Below are positions 23,685 to 57,167 of a DNA stretch of 64,000 bases, in pieces. The notes under the pieces were generated by a model. The model was not told the DNA's origin, did no database searches, and saw only the letters and a list, made by a program, of their open reading frames with translations. Every line of letters begins with the position of its first letter. Position 1 is the first letter of the stretch. The stretch lies in NCBI RefSeq assembly GCF_000204055.1, contig NW_006768778.1, positions 258,185 to 322,184 of the forward strand. The letters run 5' to 3'. A program made the position numbers and the translations under genes. Origin of the DNA: Melampsora larici-populina 98AG31 (taxonomy: Eukaryota; Basidiomycota; Pucciniomycetes; Pucciniales; Melampsoraceae).

Positions 23685-23750
23685 ATGTCAAATGCTATGA
23701 TTAGTAACTCAAATCCAATTCAATCTCATCATCATCATCATCTCAATCAT

Positions 23751-23788
<38 letters not shown>

Positions 23789-30199: not shown

Positions 30200-30260
30200 C
30201 AGGATCCGGGTTTGGTTGCTGAGAATATGAGACTGAGAATTTCGAGAGAATTTGAGAATA
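30200..30260 (+). repeat. Left terminal inverted repeat of element 1
   Basis: CAGGATCCGGG and then a run of TGAGAAT-type heptads (CTGAGAAT, ACTGAGAAT, GAGAGAATTTGAGAATA). Its partner is at 37,242-37,295 on the opposite strand. Confidence 0.72.
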
Positions 30261-30557
30261 CAGGCCCTCTGTATTAGCATATCCAATAGCATATTGACAA
30301 AAGTCCAAAACCCTACCTTATGTTAGTTCTACCATATTCCCGGCCTGTCACACCTCCACACCTGGCCCTCCAGTTCTCCTCATACCTCTTTCCATCTTCA
30401 ATTCCATACTGTTTCACCACGCCCAAAAGGGACATCACGAAAATTTTCACTCAACAAAGACATTCAGTACAATGATCCCAAACCCCTGGCGACAATGTGG
30501 AAGCGCCTGCCATAAACATTCACCGTTTCGATCACCATTTCGATCACATTTTCAATC

Positions 30558-32929
30558 ATGGTTGTCGCTACTCTTGTCCACGAGCATTACCGGTTCATCA
30601 ACCCAGGTTACTTGCCCGAGCCGCATAAAGGTGGCCTAGTTGGCATACTTTGCCCTGAATGTTCGACGGCTCTCCGTTACTTTGCCGCCAGAGAGGACTC
30701 TTGGACAATCTATGTAAGAAGTCGTAACCCATCATTTCGAACCGTATTAATAAGTACTGATAGTATATTTATCGTCCTCTTACTGGATTTTCAATTTGTT
30801 CATTTAGTGTCCACAACGTCCCAGGAATGAACATAACTGGCGAACGTGGCGGTGTGATCAATTCAACCACGAACGCGCTCTGATCAACGCAGGAGCCCCC
30901 CTTCCCATCATTTCATCCGAAAAAGACTGGGGCCCAAGGATATCACCTTTTGGTGTCGTTCTTGGACCCAAACCAACTGTGACAACCACACGAGCAAAGA
31001 CCCGCCGGGCAACCAATCAGCTTGCTGAACTGCTCAACCCGATAGAGGCCAAAGCCCACCCTTTCTTAGGTCGACCTCAACCCGTCCCCCAACTCGAAAC
31101 ACCTCAGCTCGAGTCTCTTGCAGGCCCCGTACGTGAGGGTGTGAAGTACCCTTGTCAGCGACCCTCCCGAGGGCCCGTCGCACGTAATCATCGTACGACT
31201 GGCAACAAGGGATGTCCTCACCAGTACTGTCAATCGGCAAGTTTCTCGCATTTCCACCTGATCCCAATCACGCACTTCTTGCAGAGGCATTAACCTTGAT
31301 TTCGCATATAACTTGTTTTTAGTGTTGCATTCAATATGGTTTGGGCCCTTGTTCAAAGCATACTCGACCCGCTGGCCAACGGCGCGTCCACAACCTCCAT
31401 GATCAACCGCCTCCAGCACGTCTGCCTTCTCAACTGGTGGTGGTACCCGCGAGCGCAAGCACCAGCACCTCCTCTGCAGCTACTACATGTACTCAACCAA
31501 CCCCTGACGTCGCACGACCACGGCCCGGTGGCCGCATTCATCAATGGGCCCAATCACCTGGATCACTTGGACACATCCTGGGTTTGCGAACGGTGATGAA
31601 CATCCATAACGACCGCCGCGAGCGATATGAAACTGCCGAACGTCAGATAGCCAACAAGTATGATGAGGCCAAAGTAGTCACAATCCTACTATGGCTCAAT
31701 GTGGGTTACCATTCAAATTAACTACTCTGTCTTTCACCACTAACCGCCTCAACTGTCTTTCACCACTAACCGCCTCAACACAAGCAGGGAGACCAACCCA
31801 AGGTCATTTCTGCGCATTTTGACCAATGGCCGAAGGCCAAGCTCGAAGAATCAACACTGCTCATGCAAGCTTGCACGCAGAGCCTGGGACCTACTTGGAA
31901 TCGAGCGCTGTGTTTCTGGGACGACAAGATCGACTCATGGGTAAGGACTTTGCTCAGTATTTCTTGTACAACGCAATGGCATTTCCATAGCTGATTATTT
32001 TTCTGTTGCTGTCAGCATGAGACGATGGTGACATTCCCTCACAGGTACCCCAAAGATGTGAAAGTTGTCGTAGTACGGTCGCCACACGTGGATCCTGGGT
32101 CCCCCGGCTTGCCACAACCCAAGGCCCGCAAATTAATTCCCACCCCTGCGCTCGCCAACTCGCCGGAAACCTCCCAACCAAAAGACACCTTAGTACGAGG
32201 CCGCTCTCCTTCGCGTCCTGCAAGAACCAGCCCTCCTCCTGAATCAGATTCCGATGATGAAGTGACGGTGGTGAGATCATATTTGACAGATCGTGCCGAT
32301 GCTAATAAACGGGCCAGCACAGCAGACCCCGAAAATTCCGACGATTCCGACGAAATCGAGGTGGTGAAGAGCAACTTTGTCACTACGGCAGGGGCCCGCT
32401 CAGTCAAACGCGAGACCTCTGAAGACCTACCTATATTCGACCCTACCGATGAATCACCTCTTGTTCTGGAAGGTGAAGGTGAAGGTGACCGCGACACTGT
32501 GAGTAAATGACAAACGCTCGTGTTTCTGTCCGGTTGACATAAGAGTTGACATAAGTATGTAATCGTATATCATTATGATCTTAGGTATCAGGCACGACTA
32601 CTTCGACTTGTACTTCTACTTCGAGAGAATTGAAGCGAAAGTGGCCTGGGAAGCCAGCCATGGTGCTTGTTTCCACGCTGCTTGCGTGGTACAAGCAATG
32701 TGAGACTCGACCACCACTACAGGCATGGAAGGACGTGTGGGGCGAGGAATGGGGTTTGGCGGTTTCGACTGTGTATAGGTACAGGGCGTGGATCACCAAG
32801 GTCGATTACGACCGTTTTTACGGTCATTACCGCAAGTATCCCCGTGCCACTGTGGATGAAGCCCGAGTGATGTATAAGAAGGAGTTTCAAGCTATCGTAA
32901 ACGGGAGGGACGCTTCAACGAAAGAATAG
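30558..32929 (+). CDS. KDZ-element zinc-cluster protein (C-x4-C-x2-CC...CxxH), copy 1
   Basis: Six exons (30558-30713, 30808-31236, 31323-31700, 31788-31940, 32016-32498, 32585-32929), all phase 0, give 647 residues. No known enzyme domain. Visible parts: an N-terminal CPEC, a cysteine cluster CPHQYCQSCC followed by CSKH about residues 190-210, a Ser/Thr/Pro-rich stretch, an acidic Ser-rich region (DSDDE, NSDDSDEIEVV) and a C-terminal Tr-p/Tyr-rich domain (VSTLLAWYKQCE, STVYRYRAWITKVDYDRF). Its paralogue at 41,667-44,063 has the same exon count, phases and motifs. Intron 2 has a GC donor (TCG/GCAAGT), needed to keep the cluster aligned with the paralogue. Such proteins are common in KDZ-bearing fungal elements. 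A DNA-binding or accessory role is inferred from the zinc-type motif only. Confidence 0.78.
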
Positions 32930-33334
32930 AAAAACAAAGGGATTTCATTTCATGAATTATGTATTTCATTTTTGAAAAGGCTTTGATCTTCAATGCCTTA
33001 ACCGTTAGTCTAGATCTAGACAAGTTGCTGAAACAAGTTGTAGTTGTGAAATCACGATAACAACACTTTCCTTGGTTTTGCATGATTGACGTGAAAACCC
33101 CGTTTTTAGAGACCCTTTCCCAATTGCATACGCTACGCAACATTGTCGAACGTTCTTGATTGGAAACAATACCGACCGATGGGTGGACCCTTCTCAATTG
33201 CCCTAACCCTGCTGCCAGATGTACACTCTCTTTGGGAGGTTTCCGACCCAAGAGATACAGTCATTCCTTCCAGCTAGAGACGCTGGAAGCTATGATTGAA
33301 AAAAGGCGGATGATATAAAGATATCACCCACCCA
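32930..33334. other. Spacer between the two plus-strand genes of element 1
   Basis: 405 bp, no gene. It should hold the 3' end of the zinc-cluster gene and the promoter of the OB-like gene. Confidence 0.5.
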
Positions 33335-34239
33335 ATGCCCCCCAAGGCTCGACCACCATCAGCATCCGTTGCAGACAACAGCATGACCCCACTTACTGCG
33401 AAGATCTCAGCGATTATTACCGCGACCAGCGATGTACGGCAAACTTTGTATCCAATCTCTTTATCCTGAATACTACCACGATATACAGGAAGTTCTGACC
33501 TATTACTATTACGAACGCTTCCTAGGCCATGTTTTTGCGCCTCCGCTTGCCCGACGGTGGTGCTGCCTGGCACCAGACCGAAACCGAGTTGATCTTGAAA
33601 GATCAACGAGGCCAACCCTTGGTCTGCAACCTCACAGCCTATGGCCTGCTCATGGCGGACGACGTGCTCACACGAGATTACACGTACCACATCCATGGTC
33701 CGGTAGGTGTAGATCCCGATAGCGGAGCCTTCATCAAACACAGCTACATCACGCAGAGTTTGGTGGCCACCGTCAAGCCTCAAGAAGCCCATATAGCGGG
33801 GAAAGCCTGGATCTCTTCAACCGGCAAGGTTATTCAAGTTGCTTGGGATAATGTCAGTGAAGAAGGTGAATGGCACCTTACTGTTCAAGCAGAACATGAA
33901 ATATTTGACCCGGAAGTAAGCTACTCAACCGACTCTTTCAAAACCTGATACTGACTACTTCTCTTTAGAAGAGAACCACTTTACATTTCGCAATAACTTA
34001 TTGCTTTGGACACTTTTCTCCTGAGTTGTCCGAGATGGACAACATCCAAGTGAACACCGTGATGCGCTTCGAAGGGTTGGTAACGTCCAAACACCCGGAG
34101 TCTAATGAACTCATTGTTCAAGTGCGTGTTTTGATTGTCTACTGCCATTATAACGCCATTTTTCTCACGTTATTTTGAGTTGTTTTGGTGAATCATTATA
34201 TTTCTTCAGGTTCTCAGTCATGGTTTCGTCGTGGTCTAA
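33335..34239 (+). CDS. Element-borne beta-rich protein, possible OB fold
   Basis: Four exons (33335-33433, 33526-33915, 33969-34121, 34210-34239), all phase 0, encode 223 residues. The last exon has only 30 nt. A short basic N-terminus (MPPKARPPSASVADNS) is followed by strongly beta-like sequence: MFLRLRLPDGGAAW, YTYHIHGPVGVDPDSGAFIK, RTTLHFAITYCFGHF and NTVMRFEGLVTSKHPESNEL ending in IVQVLSHGFVVV. The last two stretches look like the closing strands of an OB fold, so single-stranded nucleic-acid binding in transposition is a reasonable guess, but no signature residues prove it. The gene lies between the zinc-cluster gene and the convergent KDZ gene. No copy is seen in element 2. Confidence 0.65.
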
Positions 34240-34652
34240 GGTTGTCTTGTCTAATCGCGTGTGATTCGATGATTTTTGATCAATGTCATCGTTGTACCTT
34301 CTCACATTACGTTCGTTTCAATCAAGTGCTGCAATGGGATCATAACATGCTCTTGTTTTGTGACCAGTCTTGGTCTTGGCCCCATGATTGAAAAGGGAAT
34401 CAAAGAAAACATTCATTTCTTTGAACATACCCCGGAGTTTTTTCAGATGAGTTGCGTGTTTGTTTCTTACAAAAATCAAGACTAATCAACTTAAAAGCAA
34501 AAAATCGAAAAGCTTCGTGTATTCGTGTATGTAATGTCAAAGCTACAAACTAATTATTTTAGTTCTTAAAATAAGTATGAAATCCCGATGATCACCAACA
34601 AAAACCATAACAAACAGCCCTTGCCCAACCACACACTCACACACTACACACT
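34240..34652. other. Convergent gap in element 1
   Basis: 413 bp between the 3' ends of the OB-like gene (+) and the KDZ gene (-). AT-rich, no gene. Terminators for both are expected here. Confidence 0.5.
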
Positions 34653-36982
34653 CTAAAAAAAACCGTTACCCATGAATTCCATGTTTTTGCGCTTGCTCAA
34701 TTTTTTTGAAAGCCAAACATTCCTTAAATGCACCATCTGTTCCAAAAAGAAGTTGTACCTAAGGGAATGCATGCTGCGGCACATAGAAGCGAACCCACCG
34801 TACCAAATATTGGTGAGTTCTGCAGCTGATGCATTGAACACCCACTTACCATTTTCTTGTATATCTGGGAACAGCTTTGGGTCCGTGAAAAGTTTACAAA
34901 ATTCGTCACTTTCCGCATGAGACCGGTGGTGGAAAGGGTCGACTGGTATGACTTTGCCTTGGAATCTGGTTGTGTCGCCATTACCGTGGTAGATGTGTTC
35001 CGTGAGGCGACAAGCGTTGTCGTAAAAAACTACTTCCGGGATGCCTTGAGGAAAAGTCTCTTCCAAAAAACACTGATACCACGTCAAAACTGTTTCAATA
35101 ACAACAATAACAAACAGAAGAAGCGGTGTATAGTGTTTATTCAACTCACCTTGACGGCACTCACAGATTCAGAGTGGTAGAATGTCTTTCTTGCCAAGAT
35201 TATACCACAACAGCCCACTACAAGTTGATCGTTGTGTGTACGGCACCTTGATACCACCAGTTTGGTATGAGCTTGCAATTCACCACCATCACGGGCGCCC
35301 TCGTGGGCACGGTTGGACTCGTCAGCTTCCCGTAAGGCCTTGATATCATTGATCTCTCCTGTTTCGGCGTCCATGTGCACGGTCGGATCAGATGGAAGAT
35401 TGCTCCCAGGTCGATTAAGGATGGCAGTGAGTGAGAAATTGGTTTTGACACGTTCTGTGAACCTAGCCCACGCCTCTATGTGGGCATTCAGGTCACACGT
35501 TTTTGATTCGGGGATAGCGTTTCTTTGGCAAGGTTGTACATGACAGCGGTTCCCCAACAGCGAGTGATGCAAAGCACAGAATCGGTCGTTGATTTTCTCC
35601 AAGGGATTGGTGCAAGGTCCTTCAGGCCGTGGTTGTCCGGATTCTCTAGTGATTTCCTCAAGTTGCTCTGAGGATGCACTGCAACGCCAGTGTCCGATGG
35701 TCAACCCATTGGTCACCACCGCGCGAATTCCTGAAAGGCATTGGATGTTAGTTTGTTAGATAGTACAGACACGGTGCTGCATCCAAAGAAATATGAATGT
35801 TATGTACCGTAAAACACTTCTTTGCCCGTCTCGGGATCCACCCCACCCGATTTTACGCGCACACAGCTGCTGCAATAGTGATCGCGGAAGCTGGTGCCTT
35901 CAACGTCCAGCCGCTCCAGATGGGAGCGGATAGCGTCGTCGAAACGAAGGTCGTCCGTTCCTGTCGCAGGAAGTAGCACTTGGTTTCCCCTGCAATCTTC
36001 GTGGGCCAGCAGGTCACAGAGTTCAAGACCGTCTAGACACACACGTTCTGACATAGTCGGCGTACACGTCTGTGCTGAGTCGAACTGAGGTACACGAGAA
36101 TCTTCAACGTATATTTCGTTGTACCAGTTCGTAAGGTTGAAGTGCGAGATGCTAGGTTCAAGCGTAATTGATAGACGTAATTGATAGAAATAGAACATTA
36201 TGAGGAGAGAATATCAGTATCAGCAAAGTGTGCGCAGAGCCATAAGAGTGAATAATCGATCAAAAGGTGATAAGAATCAATACAGAGACATTGGAACCGT
36301 GCACTTACTGAGCTAGCATTTGTATAACGCGGAAAAGGTGGCCCAAACGATTTGTGAGGTAATAGTGACAATGGACATGGAGTATGTTGACGTCACGTCC
36401 CTGGTTCAAAGTATAATAGTGTCGAGTTTTAGCGGTTGTGTAGTAACTAGGCCGATACGTTGCTCCACATCCTATTGATTGAGTCATTAAGTTACAATTT
36501 TTCCAATAACAATCGAACACTTTAGTAGCCTCACCTGGGCAATCGAGTATGACTGTCTGAACTGGGTGCACACCATCGGTGTCGAAAAGGTACCCGTTCA
36601 GGCGGGTATGAACGTGTAGGTTGCGTGAAGCTGGGCAAACAAGACATTGGGATACCGGTGGTCGTATAAATTTTTCAGGGAGCTTGAACTGGAGGCCAAA
36701 CGTGCGTATGGCGCTTTTTGGATCGAACGGTGCCAAAGGTAACAACGGAAAGACTAGAGTCCATAAATCATTCATGAGGTGCTCAGGAACCTGGGTGGAA
36801 AGGGCTGTTGTGAGGAAGGGTAGCACCGTGGGTCGGTGGGCTGTTAGACTGATGGCTTGTCCAGCAACATGGTTGACCTCGGACGCCAAGGTGAAGAACT
36901 GTACGAAATCAGTGACTGTGAGGGTGGCGATTAGATGAGGACTGGTTTCCGACATCTGACCTATAAAGTCGATGAGTAGCAT
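34653..36982 (-). CDS. CxC cysteine-cluster KDZ-type transposase, copy 1
   Basis: Five exons (36982-36535, 36471-36309, 36151-35808, 35730-35150, 35072-34653) give 651 residues, 1,956 nt. The N-terminal third holds one cysteine cluster (CLVC ... DCPGCGATYRPSYY, split by intron 1), then DHYCSSC, TIGHWRCS and the CxC knuckle FCALHHSLLGNRCHVQPC with KTCDL. The C-terminal part has VVFYDNACRL, PVDPFHHRSHAESDEFC and FNASAAELTNIWYGGFASM, which fit the KDZ transposase core including the conserved Glu of the AE(l/q)TN box. It would cut and move the element in the nucleus. The start lies about 260 bp inside the right terminal repeat. No stop or frameshift, so this copy may be active. Confidence 0.85.
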
Positions 36983-37241
36983 AGTGCAAATGGGAGTGAG
37001 CGATGTCGTTTTGGTGAGGTAGGTGCAATCGATCGGTGAAGTTGAGGTGAGGTGATCACATCGGAGGGCGGGTTGGTTGATTTGTCACAGACGTGATTTT
37101 GTGAGCAAGGAATCACACGTGTGTAGCACACGTGTGAAGCAGAGTACGTGGCCAAAAGCCATACGGTATGTCGGTATGTCCAAAAGTGGAACGAGGGGCG
37201 TATAAGCCCATACAGCCCATACACTCATGGCTTATGGCGGG

Positions 37242-37295
37242 TCATTCTCAAATTCTCGGATTCTCAGAGAATTCTCAGGGGGCCCCCGGATCCTG
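37242..37295 (-). repeat. Right terminal inverted repeat of element 1
   Basis: On the minus strand this reads CAGGATCCGGG, seven bases, then CTGAGAAT, TGAGAAT and CGAGAATTTGAGAATGA, matching the left end at 30,200-30,260 with gaps. Confidence 0.72.
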
Positions 37296-38990
37296 TAGTC
37301 TACCGGAGGCAAGGTGGAAAGTGCGGAAAGTGCAGAAACCGCGGAAAATACAGTGTAGATACAGGGCTACTCTGGAAGCCCTGTATAGAGCACAATTGTT
37401 TCAGAATCCGAAAGCAGCCAATGTGGCTGTTTTAAACACACATATCATTATCAAGCAAAAGATGTCAAGGCGTACTTCTCAAAAAACGAGAACGGATTTC
37501 CAGCACGGCTCACCAGCTGTTCACCAATCATCGGCATCCGAACAACGAGCTAGATCATATATATAGTGCTATCAGGAAGCAAGTGATACAATAAGATATG
37601 TATTACAATTTTTGGTATGGATCCGGATCCGAGTAGATAAGATCGATGGGTACAAGTAAGGACCCAGGAGTCATAAAGATCAGATTTGGAATTAAAAAAA
37701 TGACAGAGGATGTTCTTTGAGAATTTATCACAGAATAAACACAATCTTTCAGTTATACTACTCAAGTAGAACTAGTGATTTTAATTAAAGAAAAGAACAT
37801 TGTTTTCCAAAGAAAAACACTGACTTGATATTGTTCAAGTTTACTAAGAGTAATAATACAAACTCTAAAAGGAGCAAGAAGTTGATCATGGTGTTGTAGA
37901 TCATATGGAGTCGAAATCTTAAGTGCGAAACGTTCTATTTTAAAAAATGAGTTGGTCGATAAGGAACAAATTTTTGCGTCTTTCAACATCGATCTCACAT
38001 CCTACCAGTGTTTGACTTTGACCCAAATGTTGAAGATATAACACTAATTTATTGGTGAGCTTGATCCTGTTTCCCTTACCAGATGTGATTGACAAAGTGG
38101 GATGAATATGAAGGACATTCACAGAGCATGGAGTAGCAAATCAAATCGCTCAATCATGCCAAGATGTTGATATGTAATAATTCATAATTCAAAAAGGTGA
38201 GTTTCAATCAACGTTTTTAAGAATTTATTGATGATTGACTAGTGGGGAGTTGGTAGGCCTTGTTTCTCCTCATGCCCTGCCTCTTTCAATCATGTTGATT
38301 CACCTATTCGCCTTGTCAGATGATGTAGTAACATGTGCAAAGGCTAGCTTCCCAAATCGGACAATGCTCGTTGAGAGCAGCCTGTATAGGTCTGTATAAA
38401 TTCCGCACTTTCCATATCCGCGCTTCGCGCAGGCTCCAATTCTTTGGATTACTCTTGTACGCTATGGGGGCGCCATCAATTCAAAACCCGCGTGCATCAC
38501 AAGAATTGTACTCAAAGTTTAATTATACACGTGATGAGTGAGAATGATTGCCTAGGTAAATACGTCTTTCATCTTGGCAGGGTCACTTTGCACTTCCATG
38601 GGAAAAGCAATCAAGCCTTGTTTTTCATAGCAAAAAACATCATCAGAACCTTTTACATCAATAATCACTGACCTCATCTCTTGTTAAGGGTTAGTCAACT
38701 CTTTGTATAAGTAGGTAGGAAGAATGGTAATGAGTTGTAGATCTGAGTGAAGAATGTATCTTGGAGCTCACATCACCAATCCAATCTTGCCTTGCCTTGC
38801 CAGTGAATTGTCACCAAAGCTCTCAAGTTCTTGGAGTCAAGGCCAGAGTTTGAATAACAGGTATTTCTGGGGAAGAGCTGTGCTCAGTTTTTGACGCTTG
38901 GCTCAAATTTAGCTGCCTGTGGATGTTTTCACTAAAATTTTAAATCAGACACCCCTGGGGAAAGTCTCTTGGCATCAACATGAATTCTCC
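37296..38990. other. Non-coding spacer with a second inverted-repeat pair
   Basis: No gene. GGAAAGTGCGGAAA...TACAGTGTAGATACAGGGCT (37,316-37,375) is roughly mirrored by CCTGTATAGGTCTGTATAAA...TTCCGCACTTTCC (38,380-38,413). This suggests an old 1.1-kb insertion whose left end touches element 1. Confidence 0.45.
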
Positions 38991-40070: not shown

Positions 40071-41122
40071 CTTGGACAGTGTATTTCTCTTAATGCAAAC
40101 TGATGGTTGCTAAAACCCAACAGGTTCACTCTTACAGTATCTTCTTGCAAAAGTTGTGATGAGATTCTCATCACTCTGTTTTGTAGGAGGTCACAAAGAC
40201 TGATTGTTGTTATACCAAGGGTTGTATGAAGGGGTCATGCTTGCTCCATCTGTGTCAAGGGCAATGTTTGATATTCTCCTAAGTTCAATTTATTTGCTTG
40301 ATTTTGAAACTTTTGAAGCATTGCAAGCAATATTGTAGAACACTACATGCTGATATTGTGTTCACCAAGGCTAGTGCTGGGCAGTGCTGTCCTTGATAAC
40401 ACTGTGTCTCTCACACTGTTTTCTCACAGCCCAATAGATAGGGGGGTGACTTGACCTGTCAGGCAGTCAGTCAGATGTACACTGACTTGTGGTGCTGTGC
40501 AATGCTCAGAACTCACCATACAATGGGACACACAGATTTCATGAAGCTCCGGATTCTCTGACTGTGAGGAAACCTATGTAGAGCTTGAATCTTCAACAAT
40601 GCCTTAGCTTAACAAAGCACTCTCTGTGCAGCCGTGTCCGTGCCCTTGCAGAGGGGCTTATGACTAATCATGGATTCCTGGTGTGAGTACCACAAGGGCC
40701 AAGTGTCCTTAAGGAGTTTTTGTTGTTTTTTGGCTTCCCTCACTGACAAACATCACTTTACCCTACAGGGAAAGTTGTTCATCATCATTTTCTACATGGG
40801 GAAAACCACTCTATAATGCTGTTCTTGAGGCACATTTTTGAGCCTTATGTCCCATTTGTAAAGGGGGTGTATTCACACCCTACCCAATTTTTGAATCAAC
40901 AATTGTTATACAAATTTTCACACCACTTTTTTGGCTGCATTATTCAGAGTGCCTATCATGTTAGGCTACAAGATCATGTAGAAATTTGTTTTGAACAACT
41001 TTGCCTGCGCAGTAAAGTGAGGTTGGCTTGTGAGGGAAGCATAAAAATGTGAAAAACTGCGCAAGGACACTTAATCCTTGTACATAGTGCTCACGCCGAG
41101 GGCATGGTCGGACTCGCGGAAG
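40071..41122. other. Non-coding spacer left of element 2
   Basis: About 1 kb with no recognisable gene or strong repeat, possibly a continuation of the decayed element. Confidence 0.45.
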
Positions 41123-41666: not shown

Positions 41667-44063
41667 ATGTCCACTCCTCAATTACATTATCCTAAACTAT
41701 TTTATGCTCGTCGGATCCATCCCCACCGTGTGTTAACAGTCGCACTCAATCAACCAACAGGATTTCATTGCGCCGGCCCGCGCTGTAGACATCGACCTAC
41801 TCACACGTCTCATTACTACAATCCTCGTCACCAACCAAACAAGCCGTTAATAGGCCTTAAGGTACGATTTTCAATGATCTATAGACCCATTATAAATAGA
41901 TGCTGATAGTGAGCAATGATTAATACCAGTGTCCGCTTGACAAAGCAAACCAAGCAGCATTTCGGACGTACAGTCGACTCGAGTACCTTCAAGATATATG
42001 CACATTGAATAACCTATCCGCCTCTATTGTACCTGCCGCCGCTGTTTCATCCAGTCCAACAGCACATATTAGCAAAAGACACGCCAACCACCTTCCCTCT
42101 AATATGACTGAACCGAAACGATCACGCTTACCTTGCGCAGGAATCCACGGTGTCAGTACCCACGTCGGTAAAGGCAAGCCAGGTAATCGCAAATGTACAT
42201 GGCAAGTGTGTCCTGACGTACGTGTGTTACTCTTGATATGAAAATATGAATATCTAAACTGAGAAATCGATTTTATTTGCAAACACTTTTGTAATTAGTG
42301 CTGCCGTCCTCAGCGTATCGCCACAGGAACAACATGTTACACTCATGAGACTGCCGAGCGCGCGAAGGCCACCGTCGTTCCCAATACTCAACCTTTTCTC
42401 AAAAGTGTCATAGAAGCAGCAGGAAGCAGCGGCAACCTAGCATCACCAATGGAATCAAACATGCAAGAATCCGAGAATGTTCAATCTCAGTCGCTACTAG
42501 TACCTCCACCTCCGATGCATCCTTTGGCTTTGTCACGATCGACCATGCGACTTTACCATCTCAATCGCTCCAATGAAGAAGAAGCAAAGCGTGCCGAAGA
42601 GGCAGCTGAGGCAAGTTGCGACAAAAACATATCAATTTCGCTATGGCTCAAAGTACGTGCTTGTGCGATTTAGTTAACCCAAAGTAAGAAGACAACAACC
42701 GGTCGACTTATGTTAAATCCAATTACTTCGATACAGGCGGACAGTGATCCAATACCTTTCTTGTTTGCTTCTAAATCAATGAAGCACTTTGCGATATCGG
42801 AATGCGAACCTTTGATGCTTTTCATCAAGGCTAGTGAGCCACATTGGAATCAGTGCCTGCGCGTATACGACGTGAAAGCGGACAGATGGGTAAGTATGTT
42901 ATTAAATATGTTTGGCAGACATCCAATATGGCTAACTCCACCAAATTCAATCTCTATGTCTTTATATGTAGAATGTAGCATTAGTCGGGACATCCATCCC
43001 CATGTTGACACCTATTCGCGAAGCGTTGGTGTGCATGACGTCAGTGGAGCCGAAGCTGTGCTGTGGGCTGAAGGAATTGCAAGAAAGGCTCGTTCCCACT
43101 TGTATGTTGCTCAAACACACTTTGGAATTGCTACGAGCGACACCTGCTAGAACACCTACACCTACCAAACGCGGCCCTTCAGCAAGTAACTTGGCTCGAT
43201 CATCGTCAGTATCAACAGAATCGTCTTACAACTGTACTCCACATTCATCCACGCCAGAATTTACACCGGTCCAATTGGGGAAAAACAAAGACCTCAAAGA
43301 CAAAAGCAAACGCCACACCGACCGGGTTGACAAGTCACCGCGCATTTCGCCTCAATATTCTTCCAACTCTTCTTCCGGTGACGAACCAAATCCTTTCGAA
43401 GAGCCTCAAGTCGTGATCCCTCCCAGGGGACCTAGATTTTCACGTAACATCTTCAACGAGCCCAAAAGCAATCCCGAAATCAATTCTACCCAACATGCGA
43501 ACGACAATTCATTGTCTCCAATTATTGATCTGACTGACAATTTACCTACTGATAGCTTTCAAAATGGCAATTTAGATGGTAACAGTGAGACTATCAGCGA
43601 TCAAGTAGACAGTGGATTTTTCCAAGGCTCAACACCTCGTCAACCCCGACCACCGCAACAACCGCTTGATGACCAACCAGATATCGTTGGGGTCAAGAGT
43701 AAAAGGAGGACTCGCAAAACAGGTTTAGTGAGTCTCATTTGTTGTATTTTCTGATTGCAAAATTATATAACATTTGACGCATAATTTATCCAGTGGCCAC
43801 CACCGGATATGTCAATGCAGGTTATGATTCAGTGGCATTTAAAACATTTGACTACCAAGGGGAAGAGGCAAGTATGGGAGAGTTTTTTTTCGCCTCCATA
43901 TATGTGGGATCGCACTGCGATGTATCGATATATACGATGGATTACCATCGTAACTGAGGCGAGATGGGAGGAATGGTTTGCAAAGTGCACTCGGGAACAG
44001 GTTTCGCCTACGTTTGCAACAGCCAAGTTTTCTTTCAGTGGTGAATTGGCGGAAGTGTGGTAA
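41667..44063 (+). CDS. KDZ-element zinc-cluster protein, copy 2
   Basis: Six exons (41667-41861, 41930-42217, 42299-42652, 42737-42889, 42972-43727, 43794-44063), all phase 0, give 671 residues. Motifs match copy 1: CAGPRC near the N-terminus, the cluster CTWQVCPDCC with CYTHETAERA, a helix region ending in SLWLK, then SEPHWNQCLRVYDVKADRW (copy 1: GPTWNRALCFWDDKIDSW), a Ser/Pro-rich linker with DEPNPFEEPQ, and the C-terminal domain MSMQVMIQWHLKHL...TAMYRYIRWITIVTEARWEE. Exon 4 is 153 nt in both copies. Here intron 2 has a normal GT donor. There is no stop. It probably shares whatever accessory role copy 1 has. Similarity is modest, so the two elements parted long ago. Confidence 0.78.
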
Positions 44064-45589: not shown

Positions 45590-45727
45590 GTGGTACACAA
45601 AATTGAAAACTGCATGAGAAAACTGTATGAAAAAACCGCATGGATTTTCTGGTTTTTGCAGGGAAAGCCAAAAAAACCATGCGGTTTCATGTGGGTTTTT
45701 CATGTGGTTTTCAAATTTGTGTACCAC
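45590..45727. repeat. 138-bp foldback (MITE-like)
   Basis: The whole segment is nearly palindromic. GTGGTACACAAA...TGAAAAC at the left pairs with GTTTTCAAATTTGTGTACCAC at the right, and an inner pair AAACCGCATGG / CCATGCGGTTT flanks a short loop. TA occurs next to both ends, which would fit a mariner-like target, but this is weak. Confidence 0.75.
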
Positions 45728-48467
45728 TTATGTACAACTTCAAATTTATGCGCTCCAGAGGAAAAGATTGGTGGTTCAATTGATTGTTCAATATTCACAA
45801 GACCAAATAAACATGTAGTTTGATAATCTTGTGATTATTTACTCAAAATCATGATGCTGATGACTTGAGACCAAGATTGAGGGTGAAGGATAGATCCAAT
45901 TTCAGGTGATCTTGACAAAAAGAAACATTTGGATATACCCCCTGATGGCAACTCTAAAGAAAATTGGAGCTTTGATCTTGAGTTTGTACAAACACACTCT
46001 TGTCATTATAAGAGAGCAAGGTGGAAAAGAGGATCAACTTAGTCTGTGTATTAATTGAGGAGCAAAATGATTTCATAGTCTGACAGATCCCAAGGTATCT
46101 CCAAAACATCAAAATCTATCTATATACAATGGTAATGTGTCCACTCAGAAAACACCCAATGTGAGAGAATCAAGAACTCAGAAAGTGAGTTTTCAAACAG
46201 ATTCATTGTTTTTTCTCAGAATTTAATTGCAATCAAAACTACTCCAACATAGTGGGAAATTGTAATCAAAGATATTAAAACAATATTGTTCCCCTGGTGT
46301 AGCAATCAGCTGAGTTTTTTTCAGATCCAGAATTTTTCCTAATAAATTCATATATCAGTTTCAAGGAGGCTTTGATCAATAAGTTGTGAATAAGTGAACA
46401 TGTTGAATGGACCGTGGAATTTGCATAGTGCTCTGGGAGTATTGAATACAGTGGAAGTATTATCAGTAATTGAATGCATTTCACTTGATTTACATGTTGA
46501 TTCACTTATCAGACAACTTGATTGGATGTGATGGTGATTTGGTCAACACTTGATGTCACCATTGAATTTGTGGAAGCAAAGATACTGAAAATCAATTAAA
46601 GGTGGTTCGTGGTAGATCTCTGAATTCAAAGTGTAGTGATCAAATGATTCAATCAAATTCAGTTGTTCTAGAATGATTGACACCTTTTTCTGATGATATT
46701 TGAATATGATTGTGAAATCTGAATATCCTTGAGCAGAATCAACATGTGCCATTATGTTATTTGATTTGGATTAGATCAAGGATAATCAGATGAACTCGTT
46801 TTTAGGTTATGATTCAAATGAGCTTGTAAAACTGTTAAAACATCCCAATTTCGGTGAGCAATTTAGTTACAAGGAGATTTCAATTCTATAATGCACATCA
46901 CCTCATCATGATTAAACCTCACTGATCGATCAGGTTCAAAGGGGGACAATAATCTACATATATATATTCTAAGAAAAACAATCAGTACGACTGTCATTGT
47001 GATAATATTTCCAGGTGACAGCTTCTCACCTTGTTCTCCATCTCAATTCTGTCTGGTGATGATCAGAAGAGATAACAGCAAACCATGATCGCACAGTATT
47101 TGATCCGATGTAAAATTGACAATGGTGCCTAGAAGAACGGGAGTAGTGATCTTGAGCTCGAGTAGTGAGAATTTACTCGATAAACATTGATGTTACTTGT
47201 CTCTTGGTTTCCAACAGAATGTACAACTTACCTGACACTATCAAGATGGAATTAGAAGTTGATCAGCCAAGGACTTAGAAGAAATTGGAGACAGGTATGA
47301 ATGGAGTGGCTTGTGCCCACTGAGATGCAAGACCAGAAGGTGAAATGTTTATCAAAGCAGTAGCTTGCCCATTCCGATCCTCTTATTATTGTACTATTCT
47401 ACTGCGATTGTATGATTCAGTAGATCCCTACAATGCATCTTGATTTGAGTCAAAGGAGCCTAGTTTTTATTGTTGTATGTGATCAGAGCCGTACCAAAAA
47501 GGCGGGTGGTTTGGTCTCAGGGCGTATATAATTTAAAGCGACACCGTAGATCAGTCCGAAAGGTCGAAAAAGGGAGTATCATTGTCCAGGAGTGATATCG
47601 GGTGGTAAGAACTTGACTTATAAACAGATCTTGATGGATGGTTTTGGATGTGCTGTAGGGTCAGCTGAATGAGATAACTTCATGGTACATTGGAACTCGG
47701 GAAAGTAGTAGTTTTGTAAGGTAGTGTAAGCCTTTTAAGATGCATATGATATGTCAAGGGACAGGTCACAAACAAAAAGGGACAATCACACATACAATCA
47801 GTCTGAGAGATACGATCGATCAAAATAAGATTGCAGAGGAGTCATGGTTATATTGAGACAAAGATCAAGACGTACACAATAGATTTTGATTATCAAGCGT
47901 TTTTCAGTGGCACAATTGGTATCTGTAGCTCCTTCAGCTTTCTCTAGCACCTTGATGATATCGAGTAAAATGATAATAGCCTGATATATACAGCAGCGTC
48001 TTCTAATTACCATGTATCGTCTTGTGTGAATCATCTGTCTATTTGGATTAAATCAGGCATTACCATAAGATGGTCTGCTTGAGGTTGTTGTAAGACTGAG
48101 GATCGGATGATTTGATGAATTGCCGGACTGAAGATTGGTTGATTTTGTGGATTGCTGGAAAGAAGGTTGATGGTACTGATGGCCGCACTGGTGAGTAGCA
48201 ACTCTACTATCAAGTCGAGAACTGCCATAGTTGAGAAGACAAAGTATGTGGGTCCAAGGGTCCTTGATGATCATGAGGAAAGTGAAGTATTGATGGTAGG
48301 TGATGGTGAATTCTGAAACACGTGAGAGTAAAATCCAATGGTTAGGACGTGTAAACCCTGAAATTGTAGTAGGGATTGACAGTTTAATCAAGTTTTGCCG
48401 CCGAACACGGTTTACCTTTAACTTGAATGATTATAGTTTTGCTATACTTTCAGTTTCCTTATTCTTA

Positions 48468-48745
48468 GATTTCACACTACCTTGTTATAGTTTTATTCCA
48501 TTCAGCACACTCATTCAAGTAAATTCAAACGGTTGTTTATAGTTTTTCCTCTACTCCTTACAAATCCACCTGATTTCACACTACCTTGTTAGATTTATTC
48601 AATTCAGCACACTCATTCAAGTATTTTTAAACAGTTGTTTATAGTTTTTCCTCTACTTCTTACAAATCTATCTAATTTTACACCACCTTGATATATATAG
48701 TAATAATGATTTCTGCACACTCATTCAAGTAATTTTAAAAAGATT
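48468..48745. repeat. Tandem repeat, about 103-bp unit, about 2.6 copies
   Basis: Each unit has TTTCACACTACCTTGTTA, TTCAGCACACTCATTCAAGT and GTTGTTTATAGTTTTTCCTC. Copies begin near 48,470, 48,573 and 48,676. Confidence 0.75.
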
Positions 48746-49111
48746 TTTTGTATTGATTGTTGGACCAAACTTGGATCAAAAAAATCGAAGTACCCACCAT
48801 TAAGTGGGTTTTGACTATCTTGGTAAGTGAATGATAACACGCATCCTTATTATATTAACCACGGTCATACCGTCACAATTGGCAGCTCCGCCAACTTTAA
48901 GCCCTTGCATATAATGAATATGACTCATCGTAATTACTCGTGGCATCGTTTGATGATGTCATTCTGACAAATTGACACGATCAGCACAAGGTAAGGAATC
49001 TTACATTACTTCAGTAACTCAAACATATTATATATTTAATCATTTGATTCACATCTATTGCGATACAAAGTGCTCCTTTATATTGTAACTTGTTCAACTT
49101 TCTTCACACTG

Positions 49112-50358
49112 ATGTCTCATCAAATGATCATTGATTTGGATAGCAATATGAATGAAGTAGAAGAACACCAAGAAACACCCGCATCTATTTCATCGATGAC
49201 GCACTGCGGTATCAGACCCATTCAACATGGTTTGGACAGCCAGAGGACAATATGTCCAATCATGCAGGTAAAGTGATAATCACCTTGTTGTTGAAGATGC
49301 TATAATCTCATAAATGCTCGGATGATCCAACTTTCCAGATAACAAATCTTCACCCGAACAATCAAGCCCACACACAGTTTTAGGTACCCCGTACTACGAA
49401 TTGATTGAAAATCTAGGCCGTAAAGAAGAGGGATGCCTTTACCGGTTGAAGGCAAAGGGTTTTCGAAATATGCATTATGAAGCGACGTACAATCAAGACG
49501 ATGATGTTGAATACTACAATGACCACATCACATACGTGAGCTATCAACTAGTCAATATGGAGTCGATTCCCAAAGGCTGGAGTGTTTGCAGGATCTATGT
49601 CGATCACAAGCAACTACGTGGTTTTATTCGCGGTTTTTACTTTATCAAATTCCACCATTCTTGGCACGATTTGGCCTCTCAAGGGAGGGCACACTGCTTT
49701 GCCCGCGCGGAAAGCAGTCGACACTCTGCCATGGCATTGAAACATTTTCAACACTCGTTATTCATTAAAGGAAGAAATGATACAGGCCCGCTTCAGCCGG
49801 TGTATCAACAATGGTACACGGATTCGTGCTCAATGGTGGTGAGTTTTTTTAATATGCCAGTATTAATGATAATAACTTTGTTGTTATCATATAGATTCAG
49901 CCATGTTACGTCCTGCAGTCAGCTGGTACTCCTTATGAGGGGGAACCTCGGTGGATGATATTTGAGGCCGCAACCGATAACAGCCACTCCTTTGTTACCG
50001 AAACTAACTTCAACAAACCTCCAAAAGAACATAATGCCTGGACTCGACTCATACACGCGTTCATTCACTATACATACGACCTTAGTGGAGACCAAACTTT
50101 AATTTCCAACCTGGATTGTGACGATCACGGTAAAATTAGCAACGTGACCTGCTATGTTAGAAAGTAAGTTTGAACTCCACTGCACGGATGTCGTAAGCGG
50201 TAGCTACAGCTAATACATCATACAAACACAGTAGCCCGCCATACCACAGCCGAAATAATGCGGAAATGGCAGGTATAGTTGAATGTGCCTTCAAATTGTT
50301 TGCGGAGCAACACGTTTGCAATGATATTTGTGAACTGCTTGGAAACGTTAAGATGTGA
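49112..50358 (+). CDS. Divergent alpha-kinase-like protein, copy 1
   Basis: Model exons 49112-49208, 49339-49838, 49895-50163 and 50232-50358 (330 residues). The first donor is uncertain: a stronger GTAAAG site lies at 49,268 but would break the phase. The C-terminal half resembles alpha-type kinases: SAGTPYEGEPRWMIFEAATD, AFIHYTYDLSGDQTLISNLD (cf. the F.HyTy..s...l...D segment), then the hallmark end FKLFAEQHVCNDICELLGN with the H-x-C-x3-C zinc-binding set. The usual DLQG and TDPQ boxes are altered (NLDCDDHGKISNV), so activity is unsure. Alpha-kinases phosphorylate Ser/Thr in helical substrates. The N-terminal half (residues ~35-200) is shared in outline with copy 2 but unrecognised. The gene sits inside KDZ element 2. 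Confidence 0.68.
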
Positions 50359-50887: not shown

Positions 50888-52042
50888 ATGGCTCCTAACA
50901 TTAGCGAGTTCAGAAATAATCCGATTCCCAGCGCCGCAGACTTAGCGTGGTTCAATAGTCTCGATCTCCGCTCTCAGTCGGAGGTATTCAATTGGGTTAT
51001 CACGGACCGTGCTCATCCTTGCGTGAGGGCAGGTTTGGATCAATGTTTCCTTTGTGGCAAGTTCGGACACCGTTACAACTCATGCAAAGTCAAAATAGGC
51101 GCGATGGCGTTCCAACATTGGCGACGCGCGACTAATGGCATTTCTTACAGTATGGATATGTTTAATCTGACCGATGAAGCACTGGCCACCGCAAATTCTC
51201 AATTTGAGCCTGGTATACTATACGCTAACTTATCAAGTTTGTGAAACTTTAACAACGCTCACACATGACATGTTTGATATTTTAGATGAAAACGACAATG
51301 ACGATGTAACATCTTTCATCTTGACTGATGAAGACGTGTCTAAATTGGACGCCATTGAAAAAGCTGCAGCTTCGTCCGCCAGTGAAGGTCAAGGTAATGT
51401 GGAAATTGTCGAACATTTAGCTGGTAAGTCACTTACGACTTCACCGAATCACTTATTCCAATGGCAATTGATCACGCTGTAATATATTAGATACCAACTA
51501 TGCTGGTGCGGATCAAAGTGGTGTCAAATTTCTTGAACCCACCTCCTCCTCGGTCCAAGTTGAAGGTAGATAATATGTGCCTCCATCTGAGGTTAAGATC
51601 ACAACTAAGTATGTGTCCCATATTAGAACAGATTGACAGAAAAGCTAGTGAGGATCAACATGAAGGTACCTCCAACGTGGAACGGGTCGGAGGTAGTAAG
51701 TATTTTATGAAATCCATACTTACTATTTTGGTTTCACGTTTGTATTGATGGATATATGTGACTTTGACATTAGGCCTGGTTGTAAACCCAAACAAATCGG
51801 CCAATGGCGACCAAGGAGCGGCTCCTAGGCATAAACACAACGCAGGTAATACATGCTATCATTGTTTCAACAGGGGCTTTGCCAAAGGCCGCGCTTGGTC
51901 GTTATCTGGTCAGTATTACGATGCTGGTTTAATAACTTATGTATCATCTGACATTTGGTCTTTGCCTTTTCTAGGTGCGAAACGCGCAAGTATCTTGAAA
52001 ACTTCCATTTGCAAGCGAAAGGCGTCGAGCGAAAGACGTTGA
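50888..52042 (+). CDS. Zinc-knuckle (CCHC) protein with a chain of small phase-1 exons
   Basis: Exons 50888-51212, 51286-51423, 51491-51565, 51627-51692, 51774-51845 and 51975-52042 give 247 residues. Every intron is phase 1 and splits a GAx or GGx codon after its first G. A further 32-nt exon near 51,880-51,911 is possible but would change the phase. Exon 1 has a perfect zinc knuckle, CFLCGKFGHRYNSC (CX2CX4HX4C, about residues 53-66), next to LDLRSQSEVFNWVITD. The rest is acidic or low-complexity (DENDNDDVTSF, GQGNVEIVEH) and ends in a basic RKASSERR. The knuckle suggests single-stranded nucleic-acid binding. The gene belongs to the cargo of KDZ element 2. The family is not known to me. Confidence 0.68.
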
Positions 52043-52875: not shown

Positions 52876-54307
52876 ATGCCATCACGCACCAACGTAGACA
52901 AGTCGGATGATGTTACCCTATCCCTATCTGAAGTTACTCCTAGTGGTGATAGCCCTTCTGCCATAACATCACCAAGATCGACATCAACCAGCTCTTTGGT
53001 TGAAATCCCAACGACCAGAAGCTCTTCACGTGGAACGTTATCTGGCCAGGGTTCTGTTGAACCCGCGGTTAAACCTTCTAACGAAACCGAACGAGCAGCT
53101 ACCAAAGCAGGTCAATCAAATCAAAATCCACGTGCAATCTACAAACTCAGAGCTCGCCCGGCTGTGAGACACGCCCCGTCTGAAGGTACACAATGATCTC
53201 ATCTTCAAATATCATTGGTAATATTATTTGAATAGATGTTTATCGATGTGTTCGTACGTTTGAAGTCGAGAATGGTGATGCAGGGAGTGTTATATGTGTA
53301 ACCATTCCGAATCGTGTCTCGTCCTTACGTATAGACTTACCATCCAAAAGAGCGGCATTTCTTTACCGCCTGGATGGCTTCTACGAGCACGGTTCCAAAC
53401 CGACATACTGTCCGGAGAACAGCTCTGGTTTCTCGGAGTCCGTTGTAATCTACGAAATGGGTCGCAAAGTTGATTTATCAAAAACAAGAGATATCAATGA
53501 ATGGCAAGTTCGGGAGTTGCAAGGTGACGGTGTTGACCTCCCTTTTCGAGGTATAGCGAGGTTTCACATGTCATGGTTGTCTATGGCTAGGTCCGGTAGA
53601 GAGAGGGCGGTTGAAGTTGTCAACGCTCACTCGTACGTGTCAAGCATGCTTCAATTATTCAAAGATAGGTTACTCAAGTTGTGGCAGCAGCAAAAGTTGC
53701 CAGATGGCGTATTAGCTATGGAGTTCTGTGATTGGTTTTTAAGTGCAGCTGCATTACATGTAATTCTAATGTTTCTTTCTTTGGATATGTATATATATAC
53801 ATGGAGAACTGACTGCTTGCTCCGTGATTTCCTCAGGTGCCTCGTGTTTATTTGATGCAAACCATTGGGTCACTTGACGATGATGTTCCTCGATGGGTCT
53901 TATGTGAAACCGCCCGCGACGCCAGCAGTCATCAATACATTTATGCATCGTTCTTCAGGGACACCATGCCGCTTTCAGATCCTTGGAAGGATCTGATATT
54001 TGCTTTTTTACATTACGTTTACCAACAGAGTGGGGGTGTTACTCTTATCGGTCAAATAGACTGTGATCATTGGGGTACAATATCTAACGTTTTGTGCTTT
54101 AATAAATCGTATGTCATATTACTTTACTACAAATTTTACCTTACCGTCATTCCATCAAATAAATGTAACATATTATTTGTGCACAGATCGTACTACTTGG
54201 AGAACAGCGACGGAATGGATCAGCCATTTTTTGATTTTAGGGGGGGGCATGCCGGTGGCTGTAACCAAATTTGCCGAGAGATTGGACTTGTACCTTTGAC
54301 TTTGTGA
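52876..54307 (+). CDS. Divergent alpha-kinase-like protein, copy 2
   Basis: Exons 52876-53185, 53236-53759, 53837-54108 and 54187-54307 give 408 residues with all phases correct. The N-terminus is Ser/Thr-rich and disordered. The middle part includes FLYRLDGFYEHGSKPTYCPE (cf. CLYRLKAKGF in copy 1) and FCDWFLSAAALH. The C-terminal half resembles alpha-kinases: VYLMQTIG, VPRWVLCETARDASS, FAFLHYVYQQSGGVTLIGQI, DCDHWGTISNVLCF, and the end HAGGCNQICREIGL, with Cys-x3-Cys and an upstream His for zinc. Exon phases (1, 0, 2) match copy 1, supporting duplication within element 2. Core catalytic boxes differ from animal and slime-mould alpha-kinases, so kinase activity is inferred only. Confidence 0.68.
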
Positions 54308-54663: not shown

Positions 54664-56920
54664 CTAGATGAGGGGAAAGGGACTTTGGGGAGCAAGGTGT
54701 GAAGGTATATTACAGCAGAAATGGGTTTTCCGTACAAGCTTTGTGAGGAGTGATTCATTTCTCACCCGTATCATCTCCTCCAAAAAAAATCTGTAGTTTA
54801 TTTCATGCATTCCACGACATATTGAGAGAAATCCTCCATACCATGCGTTGGTAATCTTGGCGGCTGAACCATTAAATCGCCAAGTTCCATCGGCCTTCTT
54901 GAGGAATGGCCATCGCTTTGGATCATTGTAAGTGCGACAGTGAGCATCTTTTTCTGAGTGGGTTCGCATATGAAAAGGGTCCACCGGTCTTATTGTCCCA
55001 TGGAGCCGTTCCGCCGCGGCTAGATCCTTTCTGAGAGATTTGTCAAAAGTGCATGAATTATCGAAGAATTGCACAGGTGGAAGGACAGGGAATTTTCTTT
55101 CTAATATTTCCTGTTTGGCCAAAGGGAGATCAATGGATTAAATGAATATTCGTGTAATGAGTATTTTGGCGAACTTACTCTGACCAAAATTACGGACTCC
55201 GCACGATACATTGTCTCTCTAGCCAGCGTTATACCACATGTAGCAACGAACAGCATGTTGTTGTGCGTTTTCGCGTTTGAGCAGAAAGGTTTTTTGCCAG
55301 CTGGTCGAGAGGCCTCTTCTCCGTCTTGTCCAGCTTCGTGCGCCCGATCAGTCTCATCTACCTCGATCAAAGCTTCCACGTTGAAATCGTCGGTGTCGGC
55401 ATTCAGTGCAGCAGTCGGATCCTCTGGCAATTTGGCACCCGTCCTCTGATTGAACGCGAGCGCAGCCAGTGATCGGCGTGTCTTCTCGGATCGTATTTGT
55501 ATGGCCTCTTGGTGCTCGGGTAAGTCGCAGGCCTTAGTTTTACCTATGGCATCTCGTGTGCATGGCTGTGCATGGCAAAGTTTGCCAAGCAACGGAGTGT
55601 GGACTGGACAGTAGCGGTCCTTGGGTGTTTCCAGCATGACAGTGCACGGTGGGGGGTTGTTATCCGAGGGGTTGAGTGAGACGAGTTGGTCTTTTGTAGC
55701 ACTACATCGTGGATGTCCAATGGTTATGCCATCCATGGCGATTGCACGAATCGCTGTTTGTATAGGAAATGAGTCAGTATTTATTATTAATTGTTTTCTC
55801 GATGGCTTACCCAAACCTCCGCCTTCCACATTAGGGTCGTCGATTATTTCTGTGCATTCTGAGCACATATGATCGATGTAAGGACTGCCTTTGAGTTCAG
55901 TCCATGTCATGACAGTCATTTTTGGTTCTCGGAACCTGTGGCAAGAACCTCCAGTGTTGGAGACAATCATCATGCGATTGCGGAGATTGAACTGGCGTAG
56001 AAGTCGATGTACATCCAACGCCGTATTGCAACAGTGGTCTGATAGGGCTGGCTTGAATGACTCCGCGTAATAATGATTGGGGGCCTCGGCTGAAAGCTTG
56101 TGGCTACTGTTGTATATAGTTACCAAGTTATATATGGAAACACTGATGAGCGATAACAAAGCGTCATGGTGAGTCAGCTTTCAACTTCGGTATTCTTCAA
56201 TCTGCGACTGTCACGTACTGAGCTAGGGATTGGGTATGGTTGAAATACTCAAGGAGTCGAATAGTCATGAAATAATGTATATTAACCTGAATGCAGTCTG
56301 CATCTTTTCGAACCGTGTCCAAATAGTAGGTGCGAGGTCCTTTCTTCTTCGAAAAGTACGTGGCTCTATAACTGGTCTTACATTCTAAAAATGTTCAATG
56401 ATTTAATAAGTTGATTTGATGCGACGATAATATGTAAAAATTGCTCACGTCGGCAATATGTTGTATGGTGACGAATCGACCGGACCCTGTCTAGGTTGAA
56501 AAGATAGCCGCTTAGTGCCGGTCTTCTTTCCAGAACTCGCCGTCCAGATTCCCTGCACGTGTCGTTTGGACATTCGTCTTCGTACGGTGGCCAGAAAATG
56601 CGTTCTGGAATCAGCGGCGCGCCCGCTTGGCGACTGAGGCCTTTGTCTCAAATGAGGGCTGCCGGTTCGACGTATGATGATGAGAGTGTTGGGTACAACA
56701 CGTTCCATAGAACCTCCCATGTGCCAGGTACTGCTGGTTGAGGTAGTGCAGCGTTGAGATAATCATACGGCGCGTTGTTCTCATCAATTTGTATGGATCC
56801 TTGATTGATATTTACGAAGTGACTGGCGACCGTGACAAATCGAAACACGTCGTCGGCATCAACAGATGCCATTACTGACGGGAAGTTGGATAACTGCTCA
56901 AGTATGTCGGATAAGCGCAT
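54664..56920 (-). pseudogene. CxC/KDZ-type transposase, copy 2, with an internal stop
   Basis: Exons 56920-56449, 56384-56219, 56106-55811, 55753-55179 and 55110-54664 total 1,956 nt, the same as copy 1, with introns at matching places and phases. Motifs: an N-terminal DVFRFVTVASHFVN, ALSGYLFNLDRVRSIR, CKTSYRATYF, DHMCSEC, GITIGHPRCSAT, YCPVHTPLLGKLCHAQPC with KACDLPEHQ, then VQFFDNSC, RPVDPFHMRTHSEKDAHC and FNGSAAKITNAWYGGF. Two defects: an in-frame TGA at 56650-56648 (likely from CGA) about 90 codons in, and Lys in place of the conserved Glu of the SAAE box (copy 1: SAAELTN). So this copy is probably inactive, unless the stop is read through and the Glu is not essential. Confidence 0.8.
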
Positions 56921-57167
56921 TGATAGTTAGTATGGTTGGTGAGGAGTATTGGTGAGGTGTAATGATTTGATCTGAATCTGATCAACTTTACTTTTTTTAT
57001 TTTTATTTGTCATGTCATGTAGTAGAGGTACTAAATATAAGGGACGGCATAGGCATAGATCAATTGGGAAGGGTGTCTGTATGTGAGAGAATGTCACACG
57101 TATGCGGTGTGTATCTAAATTTCATTTGTACGAAAACAGCCTGGGAACTACATTCCTTAAGTAGTTA
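56921..57167. other. Right subterminal region of element 2
   Basis: Upstream of the KDZ gene start. It includes GTCACACGTATGCGGTGTG (about 57,089), in the same relative place as the CACACGTGTG pair of element 1, and ends with the inverted repeat ATTCCTTAAGTAGTTA at 57152-57167. Confidence 0.45.

Follow-up and report, generated by a model that had tools for sequence, protein, structure and literature searches.

A 64-kb stretch of contig C14 from the rust Melampsora larici-populina 98AG31 (hereafter the window) contains two neighbouring elements, termed element 1 and element 2. Both probably belong to an old family of rust cut-and-paste DNA transposons, in which a fixed, convergent pair of outer genes encloses an inner slot whose content tracks the transposase clade. 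In the mechanism we propose, a protein of about 650 aa with the cysteine clusters CxC5 and CxC6 would be the transposase and a convergent zinc-cluster gene (Z) would encode its usual partner, with both genes near the ends. The unit would be bounded by short imperfect terminal inverted repeats (TIRs) and 8-bp target-site duplications (TSDs). The inner slot would carry a selected accessory module, which is an SSB-type OB protein in one clade and alpha-kinases in others, joined by a zinc knuckle in the clade of element 2. Presumably, the zinc-cluster protein helps the transposase to bind DNA, single-stranded DNA is shielded by the OB protein, and the kinases target the host.

Two elements with a common outer gene pair

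Element 1 is complete and spans positions 30190-37305. Its exact 8-bp TSD, GAGGCAAG, lies at 30182-30189 and again at 37306-37313, around a left TIR (GGGAGCACGTCAGGATCCGGGTTT, 30190-30213, forward strand) and a right TIR (CGGTAGACTACAGGATCCGGGGGC, 37282-37305, reverse strand) that are identical at 15 of 24 positions. The termini read GGGAGCACGTCAGGATCCGGG at one end and CGGTAGACTACAGGATCCGGG at the other, and a terminus similar to the left TIR was found at loci L013, L014, L016, L018, L019 and L023. Exon models of the outer genes of both elements and of the OB-like gene were built by hand. The zinc-cluster gene of element 1, E1z (30558-32929, forward; exons 30558-30713, 30808-31236, 31323-31700, 31788-31940, 32016-32498 and 32585-32929), encodes a protein that matches no Pfam family at E ≤ 1. 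It is followed by the OB-like cargo gene E1o (33335-34239, forward; exons 33335-33433, 33526-33915, 33969-34121 and 34210-34239), whose model is 100% identical to MELLADRAFT_105533. The CxC5/CxC6 gene E1k, the likely transposase gene, runs toward them (34653-36982, reverse; exons 36535-36982, 36309-36471, 35808-36151, 35150-35730 and 34653-35072).

Element 2 starts at 41098 with the terminus GAGGGCATGGTCGGACTCGCGGAA (41098-41121, forward), which matches the termini of loci C11 and C48; the left flank reads CTCACGCC. Its zinc-cluster gene, E2z (41667-44063, forward; exons 41667-41861, 41930-42217, 42299-42652, 42737-42889, 42972-43727 and 43794-44063), is a paralogue of E1z. Three forward-strand genes follow: the alpha-kinase gene K1 (49338-50358, an uncertain first exon being omitted), the zinc-knuckle gene ZK (50888-52042, with its end placed by eye) and a second alpha-kinase gene, K2 (52876-54307). 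Both kinases score above the PF02816 cut-off of 21.3 bits, K1 with 47.1 bits (E 3.8e-12) and K2 with 25.6 bits (E 1.5e-5), and the last exon of K1 contains what we take to be the H-x-C-N...C motif. The first exon of ZK (50888-51241), which is the part that was scored, matches CCHC at E 0.012, under the cut-off; copies of ZK are present inside loci C11, C17, C194 and C9. In the CxC5/CxC6 gene E2k (54664-56920, reverse), a TGA at 56648-56650 interrupts the reading frame. No right terminus was found within the window by terminus or TSD patterns, because a pogo/Tigger-like element starts at 57168, the point at which the right part of element 2 breaks off. Element 2 is a relic. A first-pass annotation of the window had placed the two elements in 30200-57167; they are indeed there, with the limits revised to those given above and with the right terminus of element 2 not found in the window.

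Spliced models and profile matches reproduce the gene content, order and orientation that this annotation described, and its view of the outer genes as paralogues with matching introns is borne out. E1z and E2z have six exons each, with all five introns in phase 0 and at corresponding places (E1z has one GC donor). E1k and E2k have five exons each, with intron phases 1, 2, 1 and 0 in both. The zinc-cluster proteins are only 26% identical over a 742-column alignment, and therefore their relationship is old; exon 4 of the transposases is 45% identical. The genes in between differ, as had also been claimed, being OB-like in element 1 versus K1, ZK and K2 in element 2.

Genome-wide linkage

The 98.3-Mb genome of M. 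larici-populina 98AG31 was searched with both transposases (79 loci), both zinc-cluster proteins (61 loci) and the OB-like protein (44 loci). At least 147 PF02816 alpha-kinase loci were obtained from 150 scored among 243 candidates, and typed loci number 23 for K1, 13 for K2 and 28 for ZK. All of these counts are lower bounds, and exon matches were joined by hand.

The first-pass annotation had staked its case on genome-wide linkage of the two outer genes, and this linkage is found: 48 of the 61 Z loci have a transposase locus within 10 kb (1.1 expected). The same distance holds for 29 of 44 OB loci (0.8 expected), 12 of 13 K2 loci (0.2 expected), 12 of 23 K1 loci (0.4 expected), 7 of 28 zinc knuckles (0.5 expected) and 23 of 147 PF02816 loci (2.6 expected). 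Fifty transposase loci have a Z gene no more than 20 kb inward, which amounts to 49 distinct Z genes given that two C42 loci share one, and the two genes are convergent in 49 of these 50 cases.

The two types of cargo exclude each other. Within 10 kb inward of the transposase, an OB gene occurs at 29 loci and a kinase gene at 27 (22 by PF02816, 18 by the K1 and K2 searches). No locus has both, and 9.9 would be expected if they were independent. The corresponding hypergeometric P of 1e-7 overstates this exclusion, because the copies are related.

Termini and target-site duplications

Sixteen loci were examined for an exact 8-bp TSD together with a TIR match at 15 of 24 positions. Seven pass (element 1, L009, L013, L014, L016, L023 and C11), and mismatched left-right pairs pass in only 3 of 240 combinations. 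The OB-carrying loci L013, L014, L016 and L023 have element-1-like ends and exact 8-bp TSDs that differ from one another, and L018 has such ends with one TSD mismatch. At L019 the left terminus is again of this form and an exact 8-bp repeat is present, with a right-end match at chance level. The kinase-carrying locus C11 has the TSD AGTGAACT and the termini GAGGGCATGGTCGCATCC and CAGAACATGGTCGCACC, and the left terminus of element 2 is of the same kind. The ends seen here are GGGAGC/CGGTAG or GAGGGC/CAGAAC, flanked by 8-bp TSDs. TIRs and TSDs bound the inner genes, as anticipated by the first-pass annotation, for the OB-like gene in element 1, L013, L014, L016 and L023 and for the kinases in C11.

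Closely similar copies were observed in two cases. L009, L010 and L011 are CxC5/CxC6 elements that are 96-99% identical, with a distant match to the C-terminal part of the zinc-cluster protein and no OB or kinase match; the TSD of L009 is TCCTGATC. L019 (C9:240487-250486) and L021 (C4:2553160-2563159) are OB-carrying copies that are 99.5% identical. Their shared part ends inside the first transposase exon, and therefore one copy has been cut there. The pair may have arisen through recent copying or through duplication.

Cargo content and the transposase clades

Cargo content tracks the transposase clade, with OB genes in one clade and kinases in several. A tree of the transposases was built from exons 4 and 5, with 45 rows out of 79 known loci and the partial row L025 left out. 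OB genes are limited there to a single clade of 17 rows, 16 of which have one (support 99/98), and kinases are found in the clade of element 2 and three others. A tree of 17 zinc-cluster rows likewise keeps the same two clades apart, with support 100/100. The OB group was not resolved in a 50-row transposase tree that was based on exon 4 alone, with five inverted-OB loci added and L039 dropped. This clade-bound distribution, together with the OB and transposase comparisons below, fits one or a few ancient replacements of cargo.

The OB gene and the transposase gene have diverged to similar extents in the pairs compared. Synonymous divergence (dS) of transposase and OB, respectively, is 0.58 and 0.61, 1.42 and 1.05, 1.12 and 0.88, and 1.01 and 0.72 in four pairs of OB loci, and thus of the same order. 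An inner group of element 1, L012, L013 and L014 is recovered in both the OB tree (100/99) and the transposase tree (94/89), and the two trees do not contradict each other. The similar dS and the matching inner group suggest that the OB module travels with its transposase. Among element-2-clade transposases, synonymous sites are saturated, and these lineages are therefore old. We considered whether the high transposase identity and low kinase identity in this clade reflect different ages; the idea was rejected, as the saturation points to constraint.

The product of E1o is predicted to have a five-stranded OB fold of the SSB/PriB type at approximately residues 122-223, so that the earlier "OB-like" label holds and can be narrowed to this type. 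A sequence-profile search of solved structures gave one chance-level match and no solved SSB. On the basis of the structural prediction, E1o is likely a single-strand DNA-binding protein. The ratio of nonsynonymous to synonymous divergence (dN/dS) of the inner genes is well under 1, and these genes are under purifying selection.

The arrangement of the outer pair is fixed, and the inner genes are reordered and inverted within the element-2 clade. Reading from Z to transposase, the order is K1> ZK> K2> in element 2 and in C17. The entire block is inverted (K2< ZK< K1<) in C11, C25 and C46:613725. Other orders are ZK> K2> K1> in C194, K2> K1> in C35 and ZK> K2> K1< in C9, and C48 has no cargo match. 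Fetched sequence bears out the findings for C11, C194 and C48; the others come from search coordinates, without TIR checks. The OB gene is oriented as in element 1 at 20 loci and inverted at nine. By search coordinates, C17:595938-627208 is a copy of approximately 30 kb with the inner order of element 2 and an extra, wrongly oriented transposase fragment beside the Z gene.

The transposase candidate and alternative explanations

E1k matches the Pfam families CxC5 (4.7e-32) and CxC6 (1.3e-20), and among 31 homologues of the candidate all have CxC6 and 30 have CxC5. Among the conserved sites of these proteins are Asp, Asp and Glu at 341, 545 and 612, in the numbering of P0003. The clusters give the earlier "KDZ-type" label partial backing, and it stays unproven. 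Several observations weigh against the proposal that these loci are a transposon family driven by the CxC5/CxC6 protein. The KDZ core, PF18758, has no Pfam match in E1k or in the tested part of E2k, and none of the 31 homologues matches it at E ≤ 1. An hhalign alignment to the KDZ core profile scores 16.3, and 30 shuffled controls reach a maximum of 22.0. No other known transposase core was detected in the candidate, and its predicted structure is poor, with no fold match at E ≤ 0.001. Element 1 itself may be inactive, to judge from an AAT (Asn) codon in E1k (35708-35710, reverse) where 27 of 30 aligned proteins have Asp (31 in the alignment, one with a gap); across 46 exon-4 rows, this site is Asp in 32 and Asn in seven, with one row misaligned and six missed by the scoring pattern. 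Nine of the 16 loci fail the strict test of termini (L012, L015, L017, L018, L019, L021, L022, L024 and L034). The OB structure model has a mean predicted local distance difference test (pLDDT) score of 48. Most alpha-kinase loci (124 of 147) and most zinc-knuckle loci (21 of the 28 typed) are more than 10 kb away from these transposases. Among the 79 transposase loci, 17 showed no Z, OB, K1, K2 or ZK partner and 23 carry neither cargo, and a fragment, C17:595938, is the sole exception to convergence.

The same results bear on what kind of transposon this is. The elements might be ordinary KDZ (Kyakuja/Dileera/Zisupton) transposons whose core has diverged too far for Pfam and which have captured genes, a possibility to which we give appreciable weight while holding it somewhat below an even chance. 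In its descriptions, Pfam links CxC5 and CxC6 to KDZ transposases, and the 8-bp TSDs, exact at seven of 16 loci with matching TIRs, are those of the KDZ superfamily, being shared with Dileera Zisupton-1_PGr and Cryptococcus KDZ1. In addition, a (Y/F)DN(A/S)C motif stands opposite YDIGC of KDZ, in an alignment that is itself non-significant. However, the core went undetected in all 31 homologues, the profile alignment scores below the best shuffled control, and none of 146 typed PF18758 loci (among the matches listed, 150 of 207) overlaps the 79 transposase loci. Furthermore, CxC5/CxC6 open reading frames (ORFs) of Pleurotus are described without a nearby KDZ gene. It is conceivable, and we put it forward tentatively, that CxC5/CxC6 proteins are not KDZ accessories; they would instead be the transposases of a separate fungal DNA transposon superfamily that has a zinc-cluster partner of its own and houses fitness modules (an SSB-type protein or alpha-kinases) in an inner slot. 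On the basis of TSDs and termini, membership in IS3EU is very unlikely. IS3EU elements of the same host order also combine a transposase gene with an alpha-kinase gene that runs the opposite way, but by description they have 6-bp TSDs and TAYGG..CCRTA ends (PMC12730594), versus 8-bp TSDs and GGGAGC/CGGTAG or GAGGGC/CAGAAC ends here.

Other explanations concern the inner genes. The first-pass annotation saw a modular family with exchangeable cargo and took the two neighbours as a case of a cargo swap; on this view, elements would freely and often swap inner genes. Different cargo within one frame and the reordered inner genes are in keeping with this, and the kinase tree at first appeared to be as well. 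A single K1 clade of element 2, C194 and C11 was rejected by the approximately unbiased test (p-AU 8e-60), as was a sister relationship of the element 2 and C194 K1 genes (p-AU 0.0001), with rows of unknown context included in both tests, for example those from Melampsora americana. With known-context rows only, p-AU is 0.0055 with C11 and 0.36 without it. We withdrew this conflict as evidence of exchange because, once only known-context rows are used, it depends on the single long branch of C11. OB genes are restricted to one transposase clade, and their dS resembles that of the transposase in all four pairs. Elements 1 and 2 are ancient relatives, as the identity of exon 4 indicates, and therefore the neighbours show no recent swap. 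Free exchange is thus unlikely; the family is real and well linked, and its modular frame stands, whereas, on present evidence, free exchange of cargo does not. It is extremely improbable that chance alone trapped host genes between two transposon genes and that these are the inner genes. Most alpha-kinase loci do lie away from these transposases, as this explanation would have it. However, the same inner families recur at many loci, TSDs lie outside the entire unit at seven loci (one of which, L009, has no cargo match), and dN/dS is well under 1. An old family with a fixed outer pair and a clade-tracking inner slot is the reading that we retain.

Other features of the window

The pogo/Tigger-like element beside element 2 (57168 to approximately 59600, forward) has matches to DDE_1 (7e-39) and HTH_Tnp_Tc5 (1.1e-9); a pattern search did not reveal its own right end or TIR. 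Nested in element 2 is a 140-bp foldback (45589-45728) with TA on each side and arms of 44 nt that are 82% complementary, which by its sequence resembles a small non-autonomous element. Upstream of K1, at 48468-48748, a unit of approximately 102-108 bp occurs three times in a tandem-like arrangement. At 59840-60260, repeats cluster densely around palindromes resembling CAGATG(C/A)ATCTG. To the left of both elements, a gene that probably belongs to the host occupies 23604-27170 and encodes a PH domain (E 5e-6).

Comparison with known systems

No description of this arrangement, an outer pair with SSB-type or kinase cargo, was found in the open-access literature searched. Related features have been reported separately. 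In TET+ IS3EU elements of rusts, the TET gene lies between the transposase gene and an oppositely oriented alpha-kinase gene (Kojima 2025, PMC12730594), and a rust Dileera family, Zisupton-1_PGr, has 8-bp TSDs (PMC12730594). Because alpha-kinases in rust DNA transposons are already in print there, the kinase cargo, which the first-pass annotation had singled out as unusual, is not new. The present elements resemble these systems as rust DNA transposons with accessory genes. According to the published descriptions, they differ by the CxC5/CxC6 protein, the usual zinc-cluster partner, the SSB-type cargo and the combination of two kinases with a zinc knuckle. If our reading is correct, rust transposons would carry alpha-kinases and an SSB-type protein as selected cargo in addition to TET/JBP, in a family whose two convergent end genes stay in place around an inner module of one type or the other, reshuffled in one clade. 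PF02816 is listed in a rust domain table (PMC5295586) and among rust proteins under diversifying selection (PMC4150398). Rust alpha-kinases are taken as host genes in such genome papers, and a transposon origin is worth checking.

The KDZ1-KDZ3 elements of Cryptococcus are likewise fungal DNA transposons of gene size that encode a cysteine cluster, with TSDs of 8 bp in KDZ1 and 4-8 bp in KDZ2 and KDZ3 (PMC12810828). In contrast to the elements described here, their KDZ core can be detected and is accompanied by CxC1, and their TIRs are 139-241 bp long. A further parallel concerns Pleurotus ostreatus, in which CxC5/CxC6 ORFs of 660 and 739 aa are described in 44 to nearly 60 copies with no nearby KDZ gene, one of them in an insert of 6,792 bp that disrupts MSH4 (PMC7641404). 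These are multi-copy ORFs of a similar kind, again without KDZ nearby. The authors tied them to Copia retrotransposons, and the passages on them name no TIR or TSD, whereas the rust loci include complete elements with TIRs and 8-bp TSDs. By analogy, this suggests that Pleurotus-type CxC5/CxC6 ORFs are DNA transposons in their own right. The rust family therefore offers a testable answer to the puzzle, as set out in that report, of abundant CxC5/CxC6 genes without an adjacent KDZ transposase. If a separate superfamily exists, the sporulation-abolishing CxC5/CxC6 insertion in Pleurotus would be a DNA transposon insertion and not a by-product of Copia.

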